Source: Phallus indusiatus
Lineage: Eukaryota; Basidiomycota; Agaricomycetes; Phallales; Phallaceae
DNA: 64,000 nt
Reading direction: 5' to 3'
Assembly (NCBI GenBank): GCA_027605045.1
Contig: JAQFWX010000006.1
Location: forward strand, 806,001 to 870,000
The notes under the pieces were generated by a model, which saw only the letters and a program-made list of their open reading frames with translations, did no database searches and had not been told where the DNA came from. Of this stretch, positions 48,613 to 63,402 are shown one piece after another. The translations under genes were made by a program, and so were the position numbers. The number at the start of each line of letters is the position of its first letter. Position 1 is the first letter of the stretch.

Positions 48613-49709
48613 GTAGAACAAGCTTCTACTCACAGACTGGCCGTTTTTATCGACACTCGCTATCGAAAAATCACGCTCGACACCGACTATCGCAGTGTCG
48701 TATTTTTCCTTCGAGTCCTGTCTATAACCGACCCCTCTGCTCCATCTTAAAAACCCCATTTTCCTTCCTCTCTCTCATGGACTCTTCTCCTCCACCCTCT
48801 GCACCCCCACTCGTCACCCTCAACGATGTGGCGACTATTATTATGCAGCAATTCGTGGAAATGGATGCCCGCATGGCAAGACAGGAATCCCAGGCCTCAC
48901 AGATGATTGAGGTGCTGCAGAGCATCCGAGACGCGGCTAGAGCTGCTCCAACCCAAAACCCCCCTGTGGGCGACGCGTCCTCGTCTGGACAACCACCGGC
49001 TCTGGAGCATCAAGCCAGTTCGCGTTCTTCCCGAAATACCCGACCTGCTGTACCTCCTTCGTTCGACGGAGATCGCTCCAAGGGTCGCGCCTTCTGGAAC
49101 ACCGTCGAGTTCTACATGAGTATATGCAGTCGCGACTTCGAGACTGATGAACTCAAGATTGGCTGGGCAATGTCGTACATGAATGAAGGCCGTGCCCTTA
49201 CCTTCAGCGAATCCATGTTGAAAAGGTATCAAAGAGGAGAGAAGCCTTTCGCCGACTGGAATGCCTTTCGGGAAAGATTCAAAACTGATTTCTTTCCACA
49301 ATCCGAGCAAGAGGATGCCATCAACACCCTCTACTCCAACCGTTATGTCCAGGGCAATAGGACTGTGGAGGAATATGTAGACGCCTTCCGCATGCTCATT
49401 GAGCACGCTGGCTTTACGGAAGGGCTCGCCATTAACACGTACTTTCGTAATGGTCTAGACCCGGCAATTGCGTCTCTGGTAGCAACGATGAAGGACCGAC
49501 CCGCACTTCACGATTACGAGGGCTGGATCAGGCAAGCACGCATGTTTGATATGGACAGGCGTTCCAACGAGGCTTTCACCACTGCTCGCTGTCGCGCACC
49601 AAAATCTTCCTAATTGGGGAAGGTTCTTTTTTTGTTCAAAGCGGAGTTCTAATCATCCAGAAATCCCATATCGCCAACATCACAGCCTCAAAAAATTCAA
49701 AACAATAAA

Positions 49710-50366
49710 ATGACTACGTTTTCGTTCCATTACTCATCCTCAGTCTCTTTACCAATTCCAAATTCCTCCACCGAATCACCAATTCTTTCTGATAATGAAT
49801 CTATGTCTCCTTTTCGCTATTCGCCTTCCAGTCCCAGGACATACGATTTGGATCTTTTTACGACTTTGTATATCTATAGTTCCAAATATGCAAGCCTCGA
49901 CCTCGATCGGGACACGCACTTACCGAAGGAACCTTCACCTATCGTTATCCGTCAGTGCAGAAGTTCGGATCTGGTTCACCCCGGGATCATGTTTGGAGAG
50001 AAAGTTTATATCGAGGAGCAGTTAAACTGGTTTACAGTTGTTAACATATATTTGACACCAGAATCAGCAAAACGAGACTTGTATCGAATATGGTTAGCAA
50101 CTCAAGAAGGATTCAAGTTCACGTTTTTAGTACTGGACGTGCCAAGTCGATGGGTAATCATGAAGGGCATGAGTACACAAAAACTTAGCCCTTCCAGACC
50201 CACGAATCCTATCCCAGAAGACACCCCACCATCACGATTCTCCCCTTTATCATTCGACACTTCTCCAACGCAGTCCTCCCCTAACCTTCCCAGTCCCTCT
50301 TCTCCCACCAAACGATCCTTCCGAAAGATCCGACGAGCTTGTTCCAACATTTTTGGACGAACCTAG
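49710..50366 (+). CDS. Element X ORF a (copy A), unknown function
   Basis: A 218-aa frame 120 bp inside the element. A Ser/Pro-rich N-terminus is followed by a core (about residues 40-155) with CRSSDLVHPGIMFGEKVYIE, NWFTVVNIYLTPESA and FLVLDVPSRWV. The C-terminus is Ser/Pro-rich with a basic end (KRSFRKIRR). There is no signal peptide or transmembrane helix. The core is conserved in the diverged copy B. I do not recognise the family. Shared features with ORF b (a DAP/DVP motif near the core end, a Pro-rich tail) suggest the two are distant paralogues. A role in the element or in its host cannot be deduced. Confidence 0.65.
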   Translation: MTTFSFHYSSSVSLPIPNSSTESPILSDNESMSPFRYSPSSPRTYDLDLFTTLYIYSSKYASLDLDRDTHLPKEPSPIVIRQCRSSDLVHPGIMFGEKVYIEEQLNWFTVVNIYLTPESAKRDLYRIWLATQEGFKFTFLVLDVPSRWVIMKGMSTQKLSPSRPTNPIPEDTPPSRFSPLSFDTSPTQSSPNLPSPSSPTKRSFRKIRRACSNIFGRT

Positions 50367-50471
50367 AACAATAAAGATAGCGTACAAGGCAAAAACAATC
50401 AGATCCACTTATTTTTCTTCTCCTACTTTGAACAATTCTTTAGCGCTTCTCTCATCTTATCCCCTCCCACT

Positions 50472-51053
50472 ATGTCGAACAATAGCGAAACTTCCCAAAA
50501 TTCTGTCCCCTATTTACAACTCCCATTTTTCCCCTTTTCGTTCCGTTCTTCTCTCAGAACCGGCCCTAATCCCGACTTCCTTACCATAATCCGTGTCTAC
50601 AACACCTTCACCTCTGAAATCAATATCGACGCCAATACAGTACTCCCCGCTACACCTCCCCCATCTTTGGAAATAACCCTTCCTTACGATGATTTAGAAC
50701 TAGAATACCCGCGAGCACTAACTCTATACGAACGAACGGACATCAATGTCATGCACGAATCGTATGAGTTTGTCGGGTTCCTGAGAGCTCAAAGGGATGG
50801 AGTACTTATATGGAGATTAGTTTTCCGCAATTGGTTTTATGGATACGTACAGTTTCTATTTGTCGATGCCCCCCTATCCGTCATGCCACCTCCCCCAGAC
50901 TTTTCAGATGATCTTACTCGCCCTCCTCCCTCATATCAAGAAGTGGAAAATGATCTGTTCGAAGATCTGAGGCGACCATCGTTACCTACCCCTCACATCA
51001 TTCTTCCACTGCCACGAAGAAGCCGATCTCAGCAGCCAGAGCCAGATCAGTAA
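50472..51053 (+). CDS. Element X ORF b (copy A), unknown function
   Basis: A 193-aa frame 105 bp after ORF a. The N-terminal half has FLTIIRVYNTFTSEI, the middle LPYDDLELEYPRAL and INVMHESYEFVGFLRAQRDG. The core ends VLIWRLVF...FLFVDAPLSV and is followed by a Pro/acidic tail with PRRSRSQQPEPDQ. It is highly similar in copy C and recognisable in copy B. No known domain was recognised. Its position before the TATA box means it would lie in U3 if X is an LTR. Confidence 0.65.
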   Translation: MSNNSETSQNSVPYLQLPFFPFSFRSSLRTGPNPDFLTIIRVYNTFTSEINIDANTVLPATPPPSLEITLPYDDLELEYPRALTLYERTDINVMHESYEFVGFLRAQRDGVLIWRLVFRNWFYGYVQFLFVDAPLSVMPPPPDFSDDLTRPPPSYQEVENDLFEDLRRPSLPTPHIILPLPRRSRSQQPEPDQ

Positions 51054-51373
51054 GAAGAATGAGATGGTATGGTATGGTACAGGATAGAGGCAGCGCGGGA
51101 AGTGCCAGGTGTTGAGTCAGGCAAGGGCTGTGTCTCCAGCTGATTTTGTTTCTCCTATTTTGATCTCTTTTTGATTTCTTTTGTTCTTTTGTTTCGGTTT
51201 TCATCATTTTCTCCTATCAATGTATGCTGTTCCTTTTGTTGTAATTGTATCTCCCATCTTTCTCTCACGATTCCCCCTATCTGCCATATTTCTTTTGTTC
51301 TTTTGTTTCTTTTTGTTTGCTATCCCGGTGAACGATGAGTGATCGTCTCACAAATGCTATGTACTCTGAAAGG

Positions 51374-51381
51374 TATATATA
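51374..51381 (+). promoter_or_regulatory. TATA box of element X copy A
   Basis: TATATATA about 560 bp from the 3' end of the element, conserved in copy C near 61936. It is followed by CTCAAGTTCAG-like repeats. This is where an LTR U3/R boundary would be expected. Confidence 0.5.
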
Positions 51382-54300
51382 CTGCATGTAAATACTTGTA
51401 ACAGCAGCAATTCTACCGGACGAGTTGTCTCACAGTTTAAGTCTCAGTCAAGTTCAGTATAAGTCAAGTTCAGTTCAAGCCAAGTGTTTCGTCTCCAGTC
51501 TAATTCTACGCTCTTATCTGTATCTTTGGATTAACTCTGAGTGAGGTCTCGGAGTATAAACTAGCGATTTTATTTCAGTTTATCGCTTTCACTAACTCGC
51601 ACAGGAATTCAGTCATCATTGATTGCAGGTCCTCTCTTTAGTCGCATTTCAAGCTCTTTGCCGACTCTCTGTTCATTCCCTCACTTGCACATCTGCATAC
51701 GACATCTCTTAGTCGTTGTATTTGTTGTTTGTGTCTTGTCTGTGTTGGTTTCGTATCAGCGCATACATCTCCTCCTTCTCATCATCCACACACACCCACT
51801 TTCTCTTATTCACCGAAATCAGCACCAGGACCCGCTCCACGGTAGACTACCGACCTCATAAACAAATATCTTCGTAATTATTCCGATCACATATAGCCGG
51901 CATACACAAAGCTATATACATCGGATCGTTACATCGCCATCGACTCGTGGGCTCTGGAACGACTCAGGCAAATCCCGCGACTATCCCCATTAATCGACCC
52001 CGCCCCATCCCTTTCACGTCGTACCAGATTCCTCAGATCCAGAGGAGGCCCCCTGCCCCCTCCTACCAGGCTCCTGCCTACCCACCTCCCAGGCCTATAC
52101 CCCAGGTCATGCCCGCACCGCCACCTAGACCCACGGCTTCTGCTCCTGCACCCCAGGTTAGGCACGATCCGATGGACGTTGACGCTGCACGACGACGCGT
52201 AGGCCCAGAATCGACCAGGTGTCATCGTTGTGGAGCAGCAGGCCATTGGGCTCGCGAATGCCCTCGCGCATACGACATTCGGTATCTTCAGCCTGACGAA
52301 TTAGATGACAATATCGCACACCTGTTGGCCCAGAAAGACGCGTTAGAAGCCCAGGCACGTGGCGACTCTGCTCTGACCCAGGGTGAGACTGTAGCTGCAA
52401 CAGAGGTAGAGGATTTTCAAAACGGCGACGAGTGACAGATGCACCCTCGTTGCCGACATCTAATAGATTCGACATTTTGTACATAGATCGCGAACAAAAT
52501 GACATTCCTGATTCGAATCTAACTACCCCTGCTGCATCCCCTGATAAACCCAAAGAATCGCCTCCACCTGCTACACGCTCTGTTTCCATTCCATGTATGC
52601 TGTCGCCTTCTCAACGTCGCGCGTTGCCCAAGGAATACCGACTTGCAGCTACGGCTGGTACGCAGAAGTTGGAGATCCCAGTGGAACTGCAAAGTGTTGA
52701 CATTGGAGCCCTGCTGCACAGCAAGGCCATGCTGGACACTGGGGCCAGTGGTATGTTCCTCGATCGTGACTTTGTCGAGAAACATCGACTTCCCTCCGTA
52801 CGTCTTGCTAAACCAATTCCCGTGTTTAATGTCGACGGTACACCCAATCATGCTGGCTCTATCACCCACGTCGTCGACCTGGTCGTTCGCTTTCGGGATC
52901 ATTCTGAACGCACCCTGTTCGCCGTTACCTCCCTCAAGTATCCCGTGTTGTTTGGGCTGCCGTGGTTCAAGGCTCACAATCCCGTCATAGATTACACGAC
53001 TGGTCAAGTGGAATTCATGCGCTGCAGTCCTAGTTGTAGATCCTGCGCTCCACGCTGGCCAGCGGGTAAACTCTCTAAGCGCGCGTTCCAGCAGATCCGA
53101 CATGCACCTCTGCCTGAACTTGATGACACTGAGACCCACGATCCTGACATACCAGACCTGGTCGACGTCAAGTCCGAGATGGAAGAAGGTGATCGACTAT
53201 TCGCGATATCAATGTTGCCCGACGAGCCTGACGCATACCGCATATATGCCACCGAGACCATCTCCCAGCGACTGGCCCAGGCCCATGCCAACAACTCAGA
53301 TGTGCTGACCCCCAAAGGTTTTCGAGATATTGTCCCAGAGATGTTCCACGACTTTGCTGACATTTTTTCGAAGGAATCGTTTGACTCGTTGCCGCAGTCG
53401 AAGAAGTGGGATCACCCGATAGAGCTTGTGCCAGGTTCTGAGCCCAAGTCGTGCAAGATCTACCCGTTGTCGCCCAACGAACAGGCCGAGTTAGACGCGT
53501 TTCTAGAAGAAAACCTTGCGTCTGGACGAATCCGACCCTCCAAGTCGCCCATGGCGTCCCCAGTATTCTTCATTAAGAAGAAGGATGGCTCCCTTCGTCT
53601 CATCCAGGACTATCGGGCATTAAATGCTATGACGATTAAGAACCGTTACCCGCTGCCCCTGATCTCAGAACTCATCAACAAATTGCAAGGTGCCCGATAC
53701 TTTACCAAGCTGGACGTGCGTTGGGGTTACAACAACGTGCGGATAAAGGAAGGAGACGAGTGGAAGGCTGCTTTCCGCACCAATCGCGGCCTTTTCGAGC
53801 CTCTGGTAATGTTCTTTGGTCTCACAAATAGCCCTGCGACCTTCCAGACGATGATGAACGAGATCTTCGAAGACATGATCTCGGAAGGTGTCGTTGCCGT
53901 CTACATCGACGACATTCTCATCTACACTCGGGATCGGGAACAACATGACCAGGTAACACGACGCGTTCTCGAACGTCTCCGCGAGCACAAGCTGTATCTC
54001 AAGGCAGAGAAGTGTGAGTTCTGTCGGACTAAAATCGAGTACCTAGGTGTCGTCATTTCCGAGAACACCATGGAGATGGATCCCGCGAAAGTCTCGGGTG
54101 TCAGAGATTGGCCTGTCCCGAAGAACGTCACTGAGGTTCAGTCCTTCCTGGGCTTCGCCAACTTCTACCGTCGGTTTATCAAGGATTTCGCGCGTATCGC
54201 CAATCCCATGTTCGGGTTAACCAAAAAGGACACTCCCTTCGTCTGGTCCGACACTTGTCAGCATGCTTTCGATACTCTGAAGTCGTCGATTACCTCTGCC

Positions 54301-57300
54301 CCCATTCTTCTCATTCCCAACCCCGCTAATCCTTACCGGGTTGAAGCAGACAGCTCCGACTTTGCAACAGGCGCGATTCTCTCACAACTGTCGGACGAGG
54401 ACGGTAAATGGCACCCTGTTGCGTTTTTCTCGAAGGCCCTTAGCCCTGTTGAACGCAACTACGAGATTCACGACAAGGAGATGCTCGCTATCATACGATC
54501 TTTGGAGGAATGGCGACACTTTCTCGAAGGCGCATCTCACCCTATCGACATACGGACTGATCACAAGAATCTCGAGTATTTCATGTCCGCGCGTAACCTC
54601 AATCGTCGTCAAGCTAGATGGTCAGTATATCTCTCACGATTCGACTTCACCCTACAGCATATACCGGGTAAGTCGATGGGTAAACCTGATGGCCTATCCC
54701 GTCGCCCAGATCATGGCTCGGGAAAGGATGATAATCGTGGCATCACTCTAATCCGACCCGAAATGTTTGCAATCAATGCTCTGCAAACATTCCGTCTTAA
54801 AGGGGAGGAGGAAGACCTTCTACGCCAGATTCGCAAGGCCAATCGGGAAGGCAAGGTCGAAGATAGCGTTTCCAAAGCCGTTGCAACACTTCGTGCACTG
54901 GGTGGTCGTTCAGCTCACTCATCGGAATGGTTTGAAGACCAGGACCTCCTCTATTATCGTGGCAAGGTTTACGTGCCAAACGTCGACGAGTTGCGTCGGA
55001 AAATCCTTTCCAAGCACCACGACACCAAACTCGGTGGTCACCCGGGTCGTTTCAAGACTCTCGAGCTCGTTTCGCGCACCTTCTGGTGGCCAGGTGTCTC
55101 CAGGTATGTCCAACGCTATGTCGAGGCCTGCGACATGTGTCTACGTACGAAATCGTCTCGTCATGCTCCCTATGGCCTTCTCCGACCCACAGAAATGCCA
55201 AGTCGACCTTGGGAACACATATCGGTCGACTTCATCGTAGAGCTGCCAGATTCCAACGGTTTCGACGCAATCCTCTCTGTCGTCGACTCTCTCACCAAAC
55301 GGGTTCATTTTGTGCCGACATTTACGACACTTGACGCGACAGGCCTAGCCCGTCTGTACCTTCAGCATGTCTGGAAGCTCCATGGGCTCCCCATGAAGGT
55401 GATCTCTGACAGAGGCCCCCAGTTCGCGTCCCGCTTCACGCAGGAGCTTTCTAGGCTCCTTGGCATACGGCTTGCACCTTCCACGGCATATCATCCTCAA
55501 ACCGATGGTCAGACAGAGCGTGTCAACGCAGAAGTCAAACAGTACCTTCGACTTTTCACCTCTGAGCGACAGGACGACTGGGACCAGATACTGCCCTTGG
55601 CTGAGTTCGCATATAACAACCACGTACACTCAGCAACGCGCGCGACACCGTTCGAGCTCGACACTGGACGACATCCTCGTATGGGATTCGAACCGCTGGT
55701 TGCCGACTCGAAGATCGAATCTGTCAACGAGTTCAAGACGCGTATGGAGTCAACGATAGAAGAAGCCAAGGCCGCCATAGTCAAGTCGAAGGACGAGATG
55801 GCCAAGTACTACGATCGGAAACACATCCCGGCACCTGAATACAAGGTTGGCGACAAGGTATACCTCGATTCGAGCGACATTCGTACCACCAGGCCCTCCG
55901 CCAAGTTATCGCATCGGTACTTAGGGCCTTTTCCGATAGTCAGCAAGGTCGGGTCGCACGCATATAAGCTGCGTTTACCACTGTCGATGTCAAGGCTTCA
56001 TCCAGTATTCCATGTCGGGAAGTTGCGTCCAAAGGTTGAAGATACAATCCCGGGTCGTCGCGTCAAGGCTCCCCCACCTCCAGAGATCAGAGATGACGGT
56101 GAGCACTACGTCGTGGAACGGATCTTGGACAGTCGTGTATTCCGGAGACGACTCGAATATAAGGTGCGTTGGGAAGGCTATGGTCCCGAGCATGATCAAT
56201 GGGAACCCGAGTCGAATATTGCAGCCCCAGATCTCATTAGGCAATTCCACCGTGAGCACCCGAGTGCGCCGCACTCGATAAATGGTCTCCTTTTCCATCG
56301 TCGCCCTCGGTGTAACGATCCGATGAATATAGCTTTGTGTATGCCGGCTATATGTGATCGGAATAACTACTAGATATTTGATTATAGAGGTCGTTAGTCT
56401 ACCGTGGAGCGGGTCCTGGTGCTGATTTCGGGTAATGAGAGAACGGGTAGATGGGGAATGAGGATGTGGGGATGTATGCGCTGATATCGAAACCAACACA
56501 GACAAAACACCAACAACAACTGCAACGACTAGGAGAGATCGTATGCAAATGTGTAAGTGATATAATGAACAGGCGTCGGCAAAAGACTTGGGTTGCGACT
56601 TAGTATGGAGGATCTACAATCAAATGATGACAGTTATCCTTCTGCGAGTTAGTGAAGCGACAATAGAATTGAAATGAAAATCGCTAGTTTATACTCCGAG
56701 ACCTCACTCAGAGTTAATCCAAAGATAAAGATGTGAGCGTAGAATTAGACTAGAGACGAAACTTGACTTGAACTTGAACTGAGCTTGACTTAAACTGAAC
56801 TGGACTTAAACTGTGAGACAACCCGTATCGGTAGATTGCTGCTGTTACAAGTATTTACATGCAGTATTTATACCTTTCAAGAAACATAGCATTGGTAAGA
56901 CGATTATTCATCGTTCACCAAGATGACAAATAGAAAGAAACAAAAAGAACAAAAGGGAACAAAAGAAATATGGAATGGGGAGTGCGAGAGAGGAATGAGT
57001 AATACAATTACAACAAAAAGAGTGATATCACAAATCAATAGGAGAAATGATGAAACCCAAACAAAAGAACAAAAGAAAAACCAACAAAACCGGCCTAAGA
57101 CACAGCCTTTGTCAGAACTGGCACCCGACTCTTCCCGCGCTGCCTCTTTATCCTGAATCGCATCGTTACCATCCTAATCTTCTTACTGATCGGTCATCCA
57201 TCGATAGGATCGTCTTCGTCATGAATATGATACATTCATGAATCCTAAGGCTATGCTTAGTATCCTCGGATCGCGCACCAGATCAGCATGGAGCTCAGCA

Positions 57301-57357
57301 TAGGCCAAGGGGAGATCTTAGTTATATCGTATGGTGTTTTGATCGATAGATACTATT

Positions 57358-57798
57358 CTAATCTTCTTCGTTGACTAGGTCTTGGTATAATTTGCATAGG
57401 TCGCATGCGATTTCGATTAGTACGTAGTCGAGGGCATCGGGGGCAGGTTCTTCGGGTTCTTCATATTCTGGCAATGGAGTTGTAGGCTGGTGGGGAGGGG
57501 GTTCTACAAAAACATCCCAGGGAGCGTCTAGAAAGAGAACATAATTGTGGAATAAGGCAGGTCGATAGAAAATAAGACGCCAAATGAGAATCCCAGGGCG
57601 ATGTGATACGAGGGCCCTGATCAGAGTATACGATGCTTGCATAATCGGTATATGAACGTTTTCGTCTACTTTGACTTCATCGGGTAATTGTAGATCGTCG
57701 TAAAAATACCGAAACTCGAGTGCTGGATTAGCGTATCGTGGCCAGGGATTATCTTCTTCCACTTCTACTTCGCTCTCCAATTGATATTCGCGAACCAT
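57358..57798 (-). CDS. Element X ORF b (copy B, diverged)
   Basis: A 146-aa frame that aligns by eye to ORF b of copy A: FYDDLQLPDEV with PYDDLELEYPR, IMQASYTLIRAL with VMHESYEFVGFL, and GILIWRLIF...VLFLDAPWDV with GVLIWRLVF...FLFVDAPLSV. It ends in a Pro/Glu-rich tail. The N-terminal part before the conserved block is shorter than in copy A. Function unknown. Confidence 0.6.
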   Translation of the reverse strand: MVREYQLESEVEVEEDNPWPRYANPALEFRYFYDDLQLPDEVKVDENVHIPIMQASYTLIRALVSHRPGILIWRLIFYRPALFHNYVLFLDAPWDVFVEPPPHQPTTPLPEYEEPEEPAPDALDYVLIEIACDLCKLYQDLVNEED

Positions 57799-58112
57799 AG
57801 TCTGAAAGTTTTCATGTCTTCTATATGGAGGGGAGAATTAAAATTGGGATAAAAGGGAAATGGAATGATGGAAAGTGTGCGATAGCCAATAGGTTGGATG
57901 GACATAATGGTGAAAAAGACAAAAGTTGAAAAGAATTTAAGCTCCGAAACAAGAAGGATGTTTTTAGGTGAATGGATAGGTGCGAAACTTCTCTTGTAGT
58001 ATTCCTTTTATTCTCTATTGTTCTCCTGATTCTGATCGGGTTCGTTCCAGGAGGCCAGAACAGACTCGTCGAAGAGCGCGAAGGGTTTGTTGATATCGGG
58101 GAGGTCGTATGG

Positions 58113-58691
58113 TCATTTCGGAAGTAGTAGGAGATTGAGGAGGGAGGAATCATGAAAAGAAGGGTTTAGTGGTTCTTTAGGAATGGGATTGGGTGATCGA
58201 TAAAATCCTAGAGCAGGTTGGTGATTACATGCTGATAGGATCCATCGGCTGGGAACATCCAGGACCATTATCATGTAATCTAATCCGACTTGTGCTGTTA
58301 ACCAAACACGATATGAATCTTGTAGGGCTGATTCTGGAGTAGAATAAACATGAGTGACTGTGAACCATCTTAGTTCCTTCTCGATATAGACTTCTTTTCC
58401 GAAAACCAAGAAGGGGTGTACGATATCTGAACTTCTACACTTATCGATAGATCGAGGGACCTTGTGCGAATAAACTGGGAGTAAGGTCTTTGAGTCCATT
58501 TCGAGAATAGGAGTGGGCGAATAATATGTAAATAGAGTTGTCTCGATATCCAAATCATGAGTGCGAGGACTATCATGAGTATAACGAAAGACCGGGGGAA
58601 AAACATCTTCTTCTGGGGACGGTTCTCGGGAATTGGAAGAAGGGGAGGGGTGTTTGAAGGAAATGGAAGAAGAAAGTCGAAGATTGAACAT
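58113..58691 (-). CDS. Element X ORF a (copy B, diverged)
   Basis: The frame starts MFNLRLSSSISF, matching the start of ORF a in copy A; an upstream in-frame ATG exists at 58754. The core CRSSDIVHPFLVFGKEVYIE, RWFTVTHVYSTPESA and MVLDVPSRWIL is conserved against copy A while flanking Ser/Pro-rich parts differ strongly. The reading frame is open for about 192 codons. Function unknown. Confidence 0.62.
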   Translation of the reverse strand: MFNLRLSSSISFKHPSPSSNSREPSPEEDVFPPVFRYTHDSPRTHDLDIETTLFTYYSPTPILEMDSKTLLPVYSHKVPRSIDKCRSSDIVHPFLVFGKEVYIEKELRWFTVTHVYSTPESALQDSYRVWLTAQVGLDYMIMVLDVPSRWILSACNHQPALGFYRSPNPIPKEPLNPSFHDSSLLNLLLLPK

Positions 58692-58900
58692 TTTATTGTT
58701 TGTTGATTTTTGGGTGAACTGGGGTGTCAAACGAGCTGGAAGTGAGTTGTTCAAGAAGAGTAGATTTAGAAGTCCGCTTTAGGAAGAACCATCCCTATTA
58801 CCAAATTAAGGAAGATTTTGGTGCGCGACATCGGTTCGATTTCTCCAAGTTGCAAGCATCATTAGTCGAAGCTACAGGCGTCGGGACGCCGCCTCGTTGA

Positions 58901-58911
58901 AGGGGGGGTGG
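58901..58911 (+). other. Polypurine tract of Gypsy-B
   Basis: AGGGGGGGTGG lies directly between the Pol stop codon and the 3' LTR start at 58912. Confidence 0.75.
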
Positions 58912-59307
58912 TGTCAGGGTACGCTATCGCTCACCCTCATTTTTCCTCATTATTATCATCGGTATATATCTATTCCTATCTTATTTATATTTCCCGTGCG
59001 TTATTTCTACCTTCTGTTTATTCTCTCCGTCCATATTTCACTTTCTCTACTCGCGCGCGTTGCGCGCTCCTGCCCGGCGTGATGCCCGTGACATCACGCC
59101 GCTTAGGCTCGGCTTGGGCGCCTGGCACTTAGCTGTGTCAGGGCCGCACGCCGCGTCGTCGTTTTATGTATATAGTAGCTGTACCTAGAGTGAGGGTCCC
59201 TAAGCTTGTTCTCTTAGGATCCCCTCCCTCTAGGTGAGTAGTATAGTTATCTTCCAATATATTACTTAGGATCCCCTCCCTCTAGCCTGAGCTGAGTAGC
59301 CCTAACA
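58912..59307 (+). repeat. 3' LTR of Gypsy-B
   Basis: A 396-bp repeat matching 48217-48612 with about three substitutions. It is followed directly by the DUF6532 gene. Confidence 0.93.
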
Positions 59308-60268
59308 AAAAGACAAGCAACTACAGCAACTAAAGGTAAGAAATTGTATGATTATTCGTATTATGTAGTATCTCATATTTGCAGCGCACTGCCGAACAAC
59401 CTGAAGCGCAAGATGTTCTAGCCATCCACCAGGCCAAACGTAGTCGTACAAGCAGGAAGCTACCAACAGCTGAGGAGTTGAGGGCAAAAATTTCTGCGTA
59501 AGCTTGATCATGGCTAATTTTCACTTCTGATGTTTTTTTCTCAGTCAAACAGGAGGCGGATATGATTCTTCCTCCTCAAGTCAACCCACCACTTCACGTT
59601 CAACTACCCCCAGTATTCTGAGTACCCGAACTTCACGTTCATCTACCCCCAACATTATGAACACCCGAACCCGCATCCTCACCAACCACTTAACCATGAC
59701 CTCAGACTCAAGTCGGGAGGGATCTATGTCAGCCATTACCCGAAGCCGCCGAGCCCCTATTTCCATACCATCGATCTCTACCAGAACTGAAACCCTGCTG
59801 CCAATTCCTGGACTATCCCCTATCCCTCCCACCTTGGATCAGGATATCCCCACAGCCCCCCAAGCCCATCCGGGCCTTGTGATCATCGACAAACCCTGCG
59901 CATTATCGTCATATACTCCTGAATATCAGAAGATACTCACTCAAGCCAAGCATTATCTGCATCTTTTCCTCGTCACTGAGAATCCTTTTCCAACCGCCAT
60001 AATCAGCAACAAATTTGTGAATTCCGCGCTCCACTATGCCAACCTTGACTTTCCTGATATACAGGACGTTGAAATGACTATTTGGATCTCTCGGATTGTG
60101 AGTAACATACACATTGCAAGAAGATTCTAATAGATAATACAGATCCGCTGTCGCGCACCAAAATCTTCCTAATTGGGGAAGGTTCTTTTTTTTGTTCAAA
60201 GCGGAGTTCTAATCATCCAGAAATCCCCTATCGCCAACATCACAGCCTCAAAAATTCAAAACAATAAA

Positions 60269-60923
60269 ATGACTACGTTTTCGTTCCATTACTCATCCTC
60301 AGTCTCTTTACCAATTCCAAATTCCTCCACCGAATCACCAATTCTTTCTGATAATGAATCTATGTCTCCTTTTCGCTATTCGCCTTCCAGTCCCAGGACA
60401 TACGATTTGGATCTTTTACGACTTTGTATATCTATAGTTCCAAATATGCAAGCCTCGACCTCGATCGGGACACGCACTTACCGAAGGAACCTTCACCTAT
60501 CGTTATCCGTCAGTGCAGAAGTTCGGATCTGGTTCACCCGGGATCATGTTTGGAGAGAAAGTTTATATCGAGGAGCAATTAAACTGGTTTACAGTTGTTA
60601 ACATATATTTGACACCAGAATCAGCAAAACGAGACTTGTATCGAATATGGTTAGCAACTCAAGAAGGATTCAAGTTCACGTTTTTAGTACTGGACGTGCC
60701 AAGTCGATGGGTAATCATGAAGGGCATGAGTACACAAAAACTTAGCCCTTCCAGACCCACGAATCCTATCCCAGAAGACACCCCACCATCACGATTCTCC
60801 CCTTTATCATTCGACACTTCTCCAACGCAGTCCTCCCCTAACCTTCCCAGTTCCTCTTCTCCCACCAAACGATCCTTCCGAAAGATCCGACGAGCTTGTT
60901 CCAACATTTTTGGACGAACCTAG
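60269..60923 (+). pseudogene. Element X ORF a (copy C, frameshifted)
   Basis: Nearly identical to ORF a of copy A but with one T missing near 60415 and one C missing near 60538. The two losses do not compensate, so the frame is broken twice before the conserved core. Confidence 0.8.
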
Positions 60924-61028
60924 AACAATAAAGATAGCGTGCGAGGCAAAAACAATCAGATCCACTTATTTTTCTTCTCCTACTTTGAACAATTCTTTAG
61001 CGCTTCTCTCATCTTATCCCCTCCCACT

Positions 61029-61610
61029 ATGTCGAACAATAGCGAAACTTCCCAAAATTCTGTTCCCTATTTACAACTCCCATTTTTCCCTTTTTCGTTC
61101 CGTTCTTCCCTCAGAATCGGCCCTAATCCTGACTTCCTTACCATAATCCGTGTCTACAACACCTTCACCTCCGAAATCAATATCGACGCTAATACAGTAC
61201 TCCCCGCTACACCTCCCCCATCTTTGGAAATAACCCTTCCTTACGATGATTTAGAACTAGAATACCCGCGAGCACTAACTCTATACGAACGAACAGACAT
61301 CAATGTCATGCACGAATCGTATGAGCTTGTCGGGTTCCTGAGAGCTCAAAGGGATGGAGTACTTATATGGAGATTAGTTTTTCGCAATTGGTTTTATGGA
61401 TACGTACAGTTTCTATTTGTCGATGCCCCCCTATCCGTCATGCCACCTCCCCCAGACTTTTCAGACGATCTTACTCGCCCTCCTCCCTCATATCAAGAAG
61501 TGGAAAGCGATCTATTCGAAGATCTGAGGCGACCATCTCTACCTACCCCTCACATCATTCTTCCACTGCCACGAAGAAGCCGATCTCAGCAGCCAGAGCC
61601 AGATCAGTAA
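61029..61610 (+). CDS. Element X ORF b (copy C), intact
   Basis: A 193-aa frame of the same length as in copy A, with few replacements (for example ENDL to ESDL, EFVG to ELVG). It starts MSNNSETSQNS and ends SRSQQPEPDQ. Function unknown. It stayed open although ORF a of this copy did not. Confidence 0.65.
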   Translation: MSNNSETSQNSVPYLQLPFFPFSFRSSLRIGPNPDFLTIIRVYNTFTSEINIDANTVLPATPPPSLEITLPYDDLELEYPRALTLYERTDINVMHESYELVGFLRAQRDGVLIWRLVFRNWFYGYVQFLFVDAPLSVMPPPPDFSDDLTRPPPSYQEVESDLFEDLRRPSLPTPHIILPLPRRSRSQQPEPDQ

Positions 61611-63402
61611 GAAGAATGAGATGGTATAGGTATGGTACAGGATAGAGGCAGCGCGGGAAGTGCCAGGTGTTGAGTCAGGCTAGGGCTGTGTTTCCAGCCG
61701 GTTTTGTTTTTCCTATTTTGATCTCTTCTTTGTTTTTCTTTTGTTCTTTGTTTCGGTTTTCATCATTTTCTCCTATCAATGTATGTTGTTCTTTTTTGTT
61801 GTAATTGTATCTCCCATCTTTCTCTCGCGATTCCCCCTATCTGCCATATTTCTTTTGTTCTTTTGTTTCTTTTTTTGTTTGCTATCCCGGTGAACGATGA
61901 GTGATCGTCTCACTAATGCTATGTACTCTGAAAGGTATATATACTGCATGTAAATACTTGTAACAGCAGCAATTCTACCGGACGAGTTGTCTCACAGTTT
62001 AAGTCTCAGTCAAGTTCAAGTCAAGTTCAGCTCAAGTCAAGTTTCGCCTCTAGTCTATTTCTACGCTCATATCTATATCTTTGGATTAACTCTGAGTGAG
62101 GTCTCGGAGTATAAACTAGCGATTTTCATTTCAATTTTATTGTCGCTTCACTAACTCGCAGAAGGATAACTGTCATCATTGATTGTAGATCCTCCGTACT
62201 AAGTCGCAACTCAAGTCTTTTGCCGACGCTTGTTCATTATATCACTTGCACATTTGCATACGATCTCTCCTAGTCGTTGCAGTTGTTGTTGGTGTTTTGT
62301 CTGTGTTGGTTTCGATATCAGCGCATACATCCCTACATCCCCATTCCCCATCTACTCGTTCTCTCATTACCCGAAATCAGCACCAGGACCCGCTCCACGG
62401 TAGACTAACGACCTCTATAATCAAATATCTCGTAGTTATTCCGATCACTTATAGCCGGCATACACTAAGCTATATTCATCGGATCGTTACACCGCGCCCA
62501 TATCGCACGCACCCGCAATAAGTGGAAAAGCTTGGCGCAGGCTATTGTAAGTGGTCCTGCATATGATTTAGGCAATGACCCCGATGCTATCAAGGTGCGT
62601 GCTTCTTGGCTATTGGAGGACACGCGGTGGGTATATGGTAGCATCGAGGGTGGCGAAGAAGGAACGAGAGTAAGTTATTGCTGACCTGTCTTGATCAATA
62701 CTAACTCAGTTGGTAGGAACGGCGGCGACGGCCTTTCGGACATCCCACTATAGCCACCATCATTGTTGGGGCGGCTTATGAAGCCAAGGATGGTGTGGCA
62801 CGTTTGTGCCCGGACAAGCTCAATCCCATTCCACTTTGCATGATTGCATTTACCGCAGTAACGGTAAGGCTCAATCGATTTAATAAAATCTGCTAATTAT
62901 TCACTCCAGATCATGAATGCCCTCCACGAGTATGCACTGAATGACGGCCACAAAACTAGCGTCGACTTCGGGGCAACCAAATATGCAGAACACTATGCAA
63001 CTCTTTTGGATAATATCAAAGACGTCGCGAAACTGAAGCCTCAACAATGCCTTGAGCTTCGGCGAGAAATTCACGACCGAGGGGCGAACAAACTCGAGCG
63101 ACCATTCAGCAATTGTTTGCAGACTCAAAAATCCAAGTTCGTCATCGAAGACTCGGATGATGAAGATGGTGAGGCGCCGGATGGATTTGATAATGATGCC
63201 GGGTCTATAGGTATCAATGAGCGTTCTGAGGAACATTTGCCAGAGGAAGAGAGTGGAAGTGAACAGGAAGACATTAGCTTCCCAGATGATCAGGATGATG
63301 ACTTTGAAAGCCAGGATGAAGGAGGTCTAATCGGTGATAATATAGTTCAAATTTGATTGTATTGCTTGTATGTACTATGCAATGCAAAATAGCGTTGGAG
63401 CA

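Follow-up and report, generated by a model that had tools for sequence, protein, structure and literature searches.

Three copies of element X in the window

We analysed a stretch of 64,000 nucleotides of the Phallus indusiatus genome (GenBank assembly GCA_027605045.1, contig JAQFWX010000006.1, positions 806,001 to 870,000 of the forward strand; this whole stretch is hereafter called the window), which carries three copies, X1, X2 and X3, of an insertion that we call element X. Each copy is bounded by TGTCGCGCACC and GATCGTTACA, which have three exact occurrences each in the window, a number reached in none of 100 shuffles. These exact end matches and the coordinates (Table 1) bear out an earlier note on this DNA, made from the sequence alone, that had described three copies with shared termini, two forward and one reverse, each with a different perfect 4-bp duplication (TCGC, TCGG and CCGC). 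The note had also treated them as a single element holding two open reading frames (ORF1 and ORF2) or their remnants. The frames are indeed found in all three copies, both being whole in X1 only, and the ends are common to all, but the copies fall into two subfamilies, A (X1 and X3) and B (X2), with the same ends and a very different U3 (unique 3') region.

The B relatives of X2 encode proteins that are only ~44% (ORF1) and ~35% (ORF2) identical to those of A, and the two ORFs of X2 itself are shorter than, and end differently from, those of these relatives. X1 is 95.7-95.9% identical to both long terminal repeats (LTRs) of a full-length element at C111:1108-1119 kb, and X2 is 99.7-99.8% identical to both LTRs of another at C123:214.7-226.1 kb. 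TG...CA ends together with short target duplications, both hallmarks of LTRs, are present in the window copies. Each window copy lies inside its own duplication and X is an LTR (see below); the three are therefore most likely solo LTRs, which would have been left by LTR-LTR recombination. U3 is predicted to lie upstream, and R-U5 (repeat and unique 5') downstream, of the TATATA of X1, taken as a putative promoter.

Table 1. Features of the three X copies in the window, and primer-binding sites in the fetched full-length elements
Feature	Coordinates	Strand	Remarks
X1, A-type LTR, likely solo	49590..51933	+	2344 bp; from ends and length
X2, B-type LTR, likely solo	56311..58830	-	2520 bp; from ends and length
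X3, A-type LTR, likely solo	60149..62491	+	2343 bp; from ends and length
Target duplication of X1, TCGC	49586..49589 (left), 51934..51937 (right)		perfect
Target duplication of X2, TCGG	56307..56310 (left), 58831..58834 (right)		perfect
Target duplication of X3, CCGC	60145..60148 (left), 62492..62495 (right)		perfect
X1 ORF1	49710..50366	+	218 amino acids (aa), whole
X1 ORF2	50472..51053	+	193 aa, whole, with PPSY motif
X1 TATATA	51374..51379	+	predicted promoter; 560 bp before X1 end
X2 ORF1	58113..58691	-	192 aa, shortened (225 aa in relatives)
X2 ORF2	57358..57798	-	146 aa, incomplete (185 aa in relatives)
X3 ORF1	60269..60923	+	two overlapping pieces (60269-60601, 60546-60923)
X3 ORF2	61029..61610	+	193 aa, whole
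X3 TATATA	61936..61941	+	
Primer-binding site, isodecoder sites	L012 3708-3747		outside the window; counterparts in L009/L011 and L014

X as the LTR of a Ty3/gypsy-type retrotransposon

The exact 11-base 5' end of X has 88 matches in the 67-Mb genome (45 forward and 43 reverse; reversed control, 7), and some copies lie in direct orientation ~8.7-8.9 kb apart. Three such direct pairs were fetched and correspond to elements of 11,081, 11,462 and 11,463 bp, with an internal region of 6,415 bp in each and with 4-bp duplications (GCGC, GCGC and ACGC). The internal region has two frames. The gag-pro frame (960 aa) shows, by eye, a CCHC knuckle and a DTGA protease motif but has no Pfam match; the pol frame (1168 aa) has Pfam matches to RVT_1 (263-444), RNase H (508-637) and rve (853-940), which is the Ty3 order. 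The closest solved chain to pol is also Ty3, and on these two grounds X is classed as the LTR of a Ty3/gypsy-type retrotransposon. The Chromo match that marks chromoviruses is absent from the 1138 of 1168 aa of pol searched (Pfam, E 0.01), and the same search matched a chromodomain in the other gypsy element of the window. The two ORFs that follow pol, in U3, have no Pfam match, env included.

An 18-nt match to the 3' end of tRNA-Asn(GTT), CCA included, forms the primer-binding site (PBS), which begins 4 nt beyond the LTR on its downstream side. Over 18 nt, one tRNA-Asn isodecoder is matched by two of the fetched elements and a second, one base different, by the remaining one, as would be expected if the PBS is rewritten from its primer. 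At the other end, the purine-rich tract AGGGTGGA (seven of eight purines) adjoins the 3' LTR in all three. Genome-wide, the LTR-PBS junction has five matches without mismatch, plus one, on C8, with one mismatch and no partner, and the junction of the polypurine tract (PPT) with the LTR has five (three exact, two with one mismatch; control, 0). Counting an LTR-PBS match only if exact and paired with a PPT-LTR junction, the five of each pair one to one, giving internal regions of about 6.4 kb at five loci. Pol at 99-100% identity occurs at at least five loci, three of them open over 1169 codons and two split, with 95% identity in the short piece; this search scored 41 of its 572 candidates, and further copies may exist.

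Direct X pairs around an internal domain with a PBS and a purine-rich tract, which the earlier note had proposed to look for, thus exist at five loci, and its proposal of a solo LTR from a retroelement with two proteins encoded in U3 is supported; such pairs also enclose gag-pro and pol, and the ORFs have no Pfam match and only unnamed relatives (see below). Its other suggestion, an undescribed non-autonomous element, is not needed. A DNA transposon or stand-alone element was rejected on the strength of gag-pol between direct LTR pairs. One could still suppose that X is an independent non-autonomous element, similar to a large retrotransposon derivative (LARD), a terminal-repeat retrotransposon in miniature (TRIM) or a DNA transposon, which uses the enzymes of the gag-pol element and whose pairs are secondary. 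The 88 exact 5' ends stand against only five full-length elements, as such an element might have it, and perfect duplications are common among solo-type copies: among 17 copies with both ends visible, a perfect duplication flanks ten, five belong to full elements as their LTRs (one flank being the internal side) and two differ, that is 10 of 12 solo-type copies by our own sorting. However, X flanks all five of the 99%-identical pol loci among the matches listed, and in each of the three elements fetched no substitution separates the 5' from the 3' LTR, so that we consider this scenario highly improbable.

Two genes in U3

Pairwise dN/dS (nonsynonymous to synonymous rate ratio; Nei-Gojobori, with bootstrap limits) is 0.15-0.25 between subtypes of one type, with upper 95% limits of at most 0.38 where dS exceeds 0.3. 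For ORF1, it is 0.25 (0.15-0.38) between A and A', 0.18-0.20 in closer A pairs (upper limits to 0.59), and 0.30 (0.16-0.48; 278 of 300 bootstraps usable) and 0.42 (0.28-0.59) between A or A' and B. For ORF2, the values are 0.15-0.18 (0.10-0.26) between A and A', 0.18 and 0.22 in closer A pairs (upper limits 0.29 and 0.47), 0.22 in one pair of A and B, the other pair not being computable, and 0.06, 0.16 (0.09-0.25) and 0.23 (0.13-0.34) within B. Changes are in excess at third codon positions (e.g. 26, 17, 57 and 27, 15, 63 at positions 1, 2 and 3), and by hand count at least 47 of 153 ORF1 genome matches span at least 210 of the 218 codons without a stop. Because of the dN/dS of 0.15-0.25 between subtypes of one type, U3 appears to hold two real genes kept under purifying selection.

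Accidental ORFs were rejected on dN/dS and on dinucleotide-preserving shuffles of X1, where the longest ORF reached 218 aa in two of 500 and the second reached 193 aa in none of 500. In a wider form of this idea, the ORFs would be chance frames or remnants in a long non-coding U3, and the target of selection would be the regulatory role of the LTR alone. In its favour, LTRs seldom encode proteins, broken copies are numerous, and two X1 shuffles did match ORF1 in length, whereas the third-position excess with low dN/dS, the failure of every shuffle to yield both ORFs, and the relatives in public contigs described below make this a most unlikely explanation.

Relatives and motifs of the two proteins

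The earlier note had suggested comparing the ORFs with protein databases. No Pfam family was matched at E 1 by three ORF1/ORF2 proteins, and neither ORF was matched to a virus or transposon; among the 5.8 billion proteins searched there were three relatives in all, unnamed and on public contigs, two of ORF1 (P0001, 67% identity; P0003, 49%) and one of ORF2 (P0002, 59% over 69%). Five diverse ORF1 proteins have in common a core and, towards the C terminus, a basic stretch that includes a CS pair. In the best ORF1 structure model, based on a three-sequence alignment, residues 46-152 are confident (block means 86-94); two of the five models scored just 31 and 27. Of 30 distinct ORF2 proteins 180-200 aa long, 29 contain a [P/L]PxY motif, and it is present in 33 of 41 distinct ORF2 frames overall, as compared with 6 of 49 distinct ORF1 frames. 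Motifs of this kind bind WW domains.

The lack of viral or transposon matches, together with the many solo copies, would also fit a capture of ORF1 and ORF2 from the host, the selection then reflecting a gain for the host and not for the element. Against it, the genome matches listed (which are lower bounds) included none recognisable as lying clearly outside the repeat family, and the same ORF subtypes are present in recent elements with identical LTRs. We regard host capture as improbable.

Exchange of LTRs between backbones

Two B-type elements, JA and JB, differ at 91 of 6415 internal positions and at 17 of 2522 LTR positions. JB and the A-type JC differ at only 62 of 6415 internal positions, but at 850 of 2284 aligned LTR positions, with a further 291 LTR gap columns; they are thus ~99% identical internally and ~63% identical in aligned LTR columns. 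This conflict between internal and LTR histories indicates that LTRs have been exchanged between backbones, and template switching is the likely route. The A types show every one of the four possible pairings of ORF1 with ORF2 subtypes (22, 8, 5 and 2) among the 37 loci typed out of 44, the other seven being incomplete. Of the 60 loci L017-L076, 16 had been excluded beforehand as overlapping, and among the 44 kept a few represent both LTRs of a single element.

Age and a sister family

Across 2521, 2523 and 2330 sites, the LTR pairs of the three fetched elements (L009-L015) have no substitution; their gap columns number 13 in total. At a fungal substitution rate of 1.05e-9, as given in the part of PMC5689174 available to us, the insertions would date from roughly the last 0.2 million years. 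Since the LTR differences are confined to C runs, homopolymer errors in the assembly are suggested, and some broken frames may not be real.

The nearest pol outside the X family is found at three loci (reverse transcriptase part 52% and integrase part 45-46% identical). One of these, at C140:403-410 kb (52% and 46%), has a pair of 270-bp LTRs that are 100% identical (L083 2420-2689 and L082 253-522), with no ORF of at least 70 aa in the LTR and no ORF1 or ORF2 match downstream. A GCAC duplication flanks this sister element, by eye. The short LTRs without ORF1 and ORF2 at this locus suggest that the X lineage probably acquired its long coding U3, loss in the sister being the alternative.

Target sites and genomic context

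Fetched loci provided 44 distinct 5' flanks, one of which is the internal PPT and was excluded. The 4-bp target has a central CG in 41 of the remaining 43, and the other two (ACAG and GTGC) are one transition away from it; at six control offsets a central CG occurs in 0-3 of 43, and the CG frequency of the window is 4.6%. Insertion of the X family has a strong CG-centred target preference, and with it X possesses the sequence-specific palindromic target by which errantiviruses are recognised.

When the sites are restored without X and searched within three mismatches, that of X1 has 64 matches (best, one mismatch; control, 0), that of X2 has 118, of which 45 are exact (control, 0), and the four matches of the X3 site are all exact (control, 2). 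A second gypsy element (gag, chromodomain pol), at 48777-56310, holds X1 and X2 nested in its sequence; it belongs to a large family, as the 118 places matching the X2 site indicate. X3 interrupts a gene-like sequence (59657-60148 and 62496-63356), two pieces of which gave no Pfam match.

Discussion

We consider it very probable that X is a Ty3/gypsy LTR whose U3 holds two genes under purifying selection, their proteins likely being accessory factors of the element. Several observations weigh against this. The reversed LTR-PBS control gave four matches within two mismatches or fewer. Many X copies are broken, including X2 and X3, and the B-type X2 contains no TATATA; the TATA-like sequence followed by ~570 bp, reported for every copy in the earlier note, therefore holds for X1, with X3 having the TATATA as well. 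Two close B ORF1 copies (dN/dS 0.58, 0.12-2.22) and two B ORF2 copies (0.61, 0.32-1.31) are uninformative, dS between A and B is near saturation, the dN/dS estimates are pairwise and not independent, and the ORF2 structure model is poor.

Accessory proteins comparable in position to Sag of mouse mammary tumour virus (MMTV) would be the likeliest reading of ORF1 and ORF2. The available part of PMC9412291 places sag, a protein gene, in the U3 of the LTR, upstream of the genomic promoter. The X genes resemble this betaretroviral gene in lying in U3, whose limit is predicted from the TATA box, and in being kept by selection; MMTV differs in having a single U3 gene with its own U3 promoter and an env elsewhere, whereas X is of the Ty3 type with two U3 genes. 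Pfam holds a Sag family, and the three X proteins searched showed no sequence match to it (0 families, E 1).

Other systems share single features with X. The fungal element crapaud of Podospora likewise has strongly diverged U3 variants on largely homologous internal regions, and its authors discuss template switching; however, its LTRs are 339-443 bp with a variable U3 half of less than 200 bp, and the portion of that paper available describes no U3 genes (PMC10787394). Drosophila errantiviruses (gypsy, ZAM and Idefix groups) have palindromic sequence-specific targets like X, CGCG being among the three types given in the accessible part of PMC5408687. They carry env in the internal part, whereas X has no Pfam env match and has its extra genes in U3. 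Rice Retrosat2 combines very long LTRs with an extra ORF of unknown function, but, in the sections available, this ORF0 lies upstream of the gag-pol ORF and outside the LTR (PMC3485330). Bdelloid rotifer LTR retrotransposons have also captured extra ORFs; these are env-like and GDSL-like enzymes, not placed in LTRs in the available text (PMC5408684). The C140 sister family has a related pol and, unlike X, short LTRs without the two genes.

As the A-type TATA box lies downstream of the ORFs, the element RNA would carry ORF1 and ORF2 at its 3' end only, behind pol, and their translation may, as in MMTV, rely on an mRNA that is spliced or has a start of its own. Template switching could exchange the LTR cassettes inside a particle that contains two different RNAs. 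More speculatively, the [P/L]PxY motif of ORF2 might recruit an Rsp5/NEDD4-like ubiquitin ligase that has WW domains, and ORF1 might combine a folded core with a basic tail that binds membrane or nucleic acid. It is possible, if rather tentative, that the LTR is an exchangeable two-gene cassette, by which a gag-pol backbone trades strongly diverged pairs of accessory proteins through template switching. U3 would then be a specificity module, with host restriction or rival copies as its target; it would parallel sag and nef outside the retroviruses and would also persist as protein-coding solo LTRs.

According to the available part of PMC5408687, sequence-specific integration is exclusive to errantiviruses and their derivatives, a statement on which the CG-centred targets of X bear. 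Outside the retroviruses, the X family is a case in which to ask what makes accessory genes settle in U3 and by what route different U3 versions come to sit on a single backbone; the sister family, which lacks the genes, provides a natural control. The LTR is commonly regarded as regulatory DNA. Those of X appear to encode two conserved proteins, and its solo LTRs, the commonest remnants of the element, would be gene copies too.

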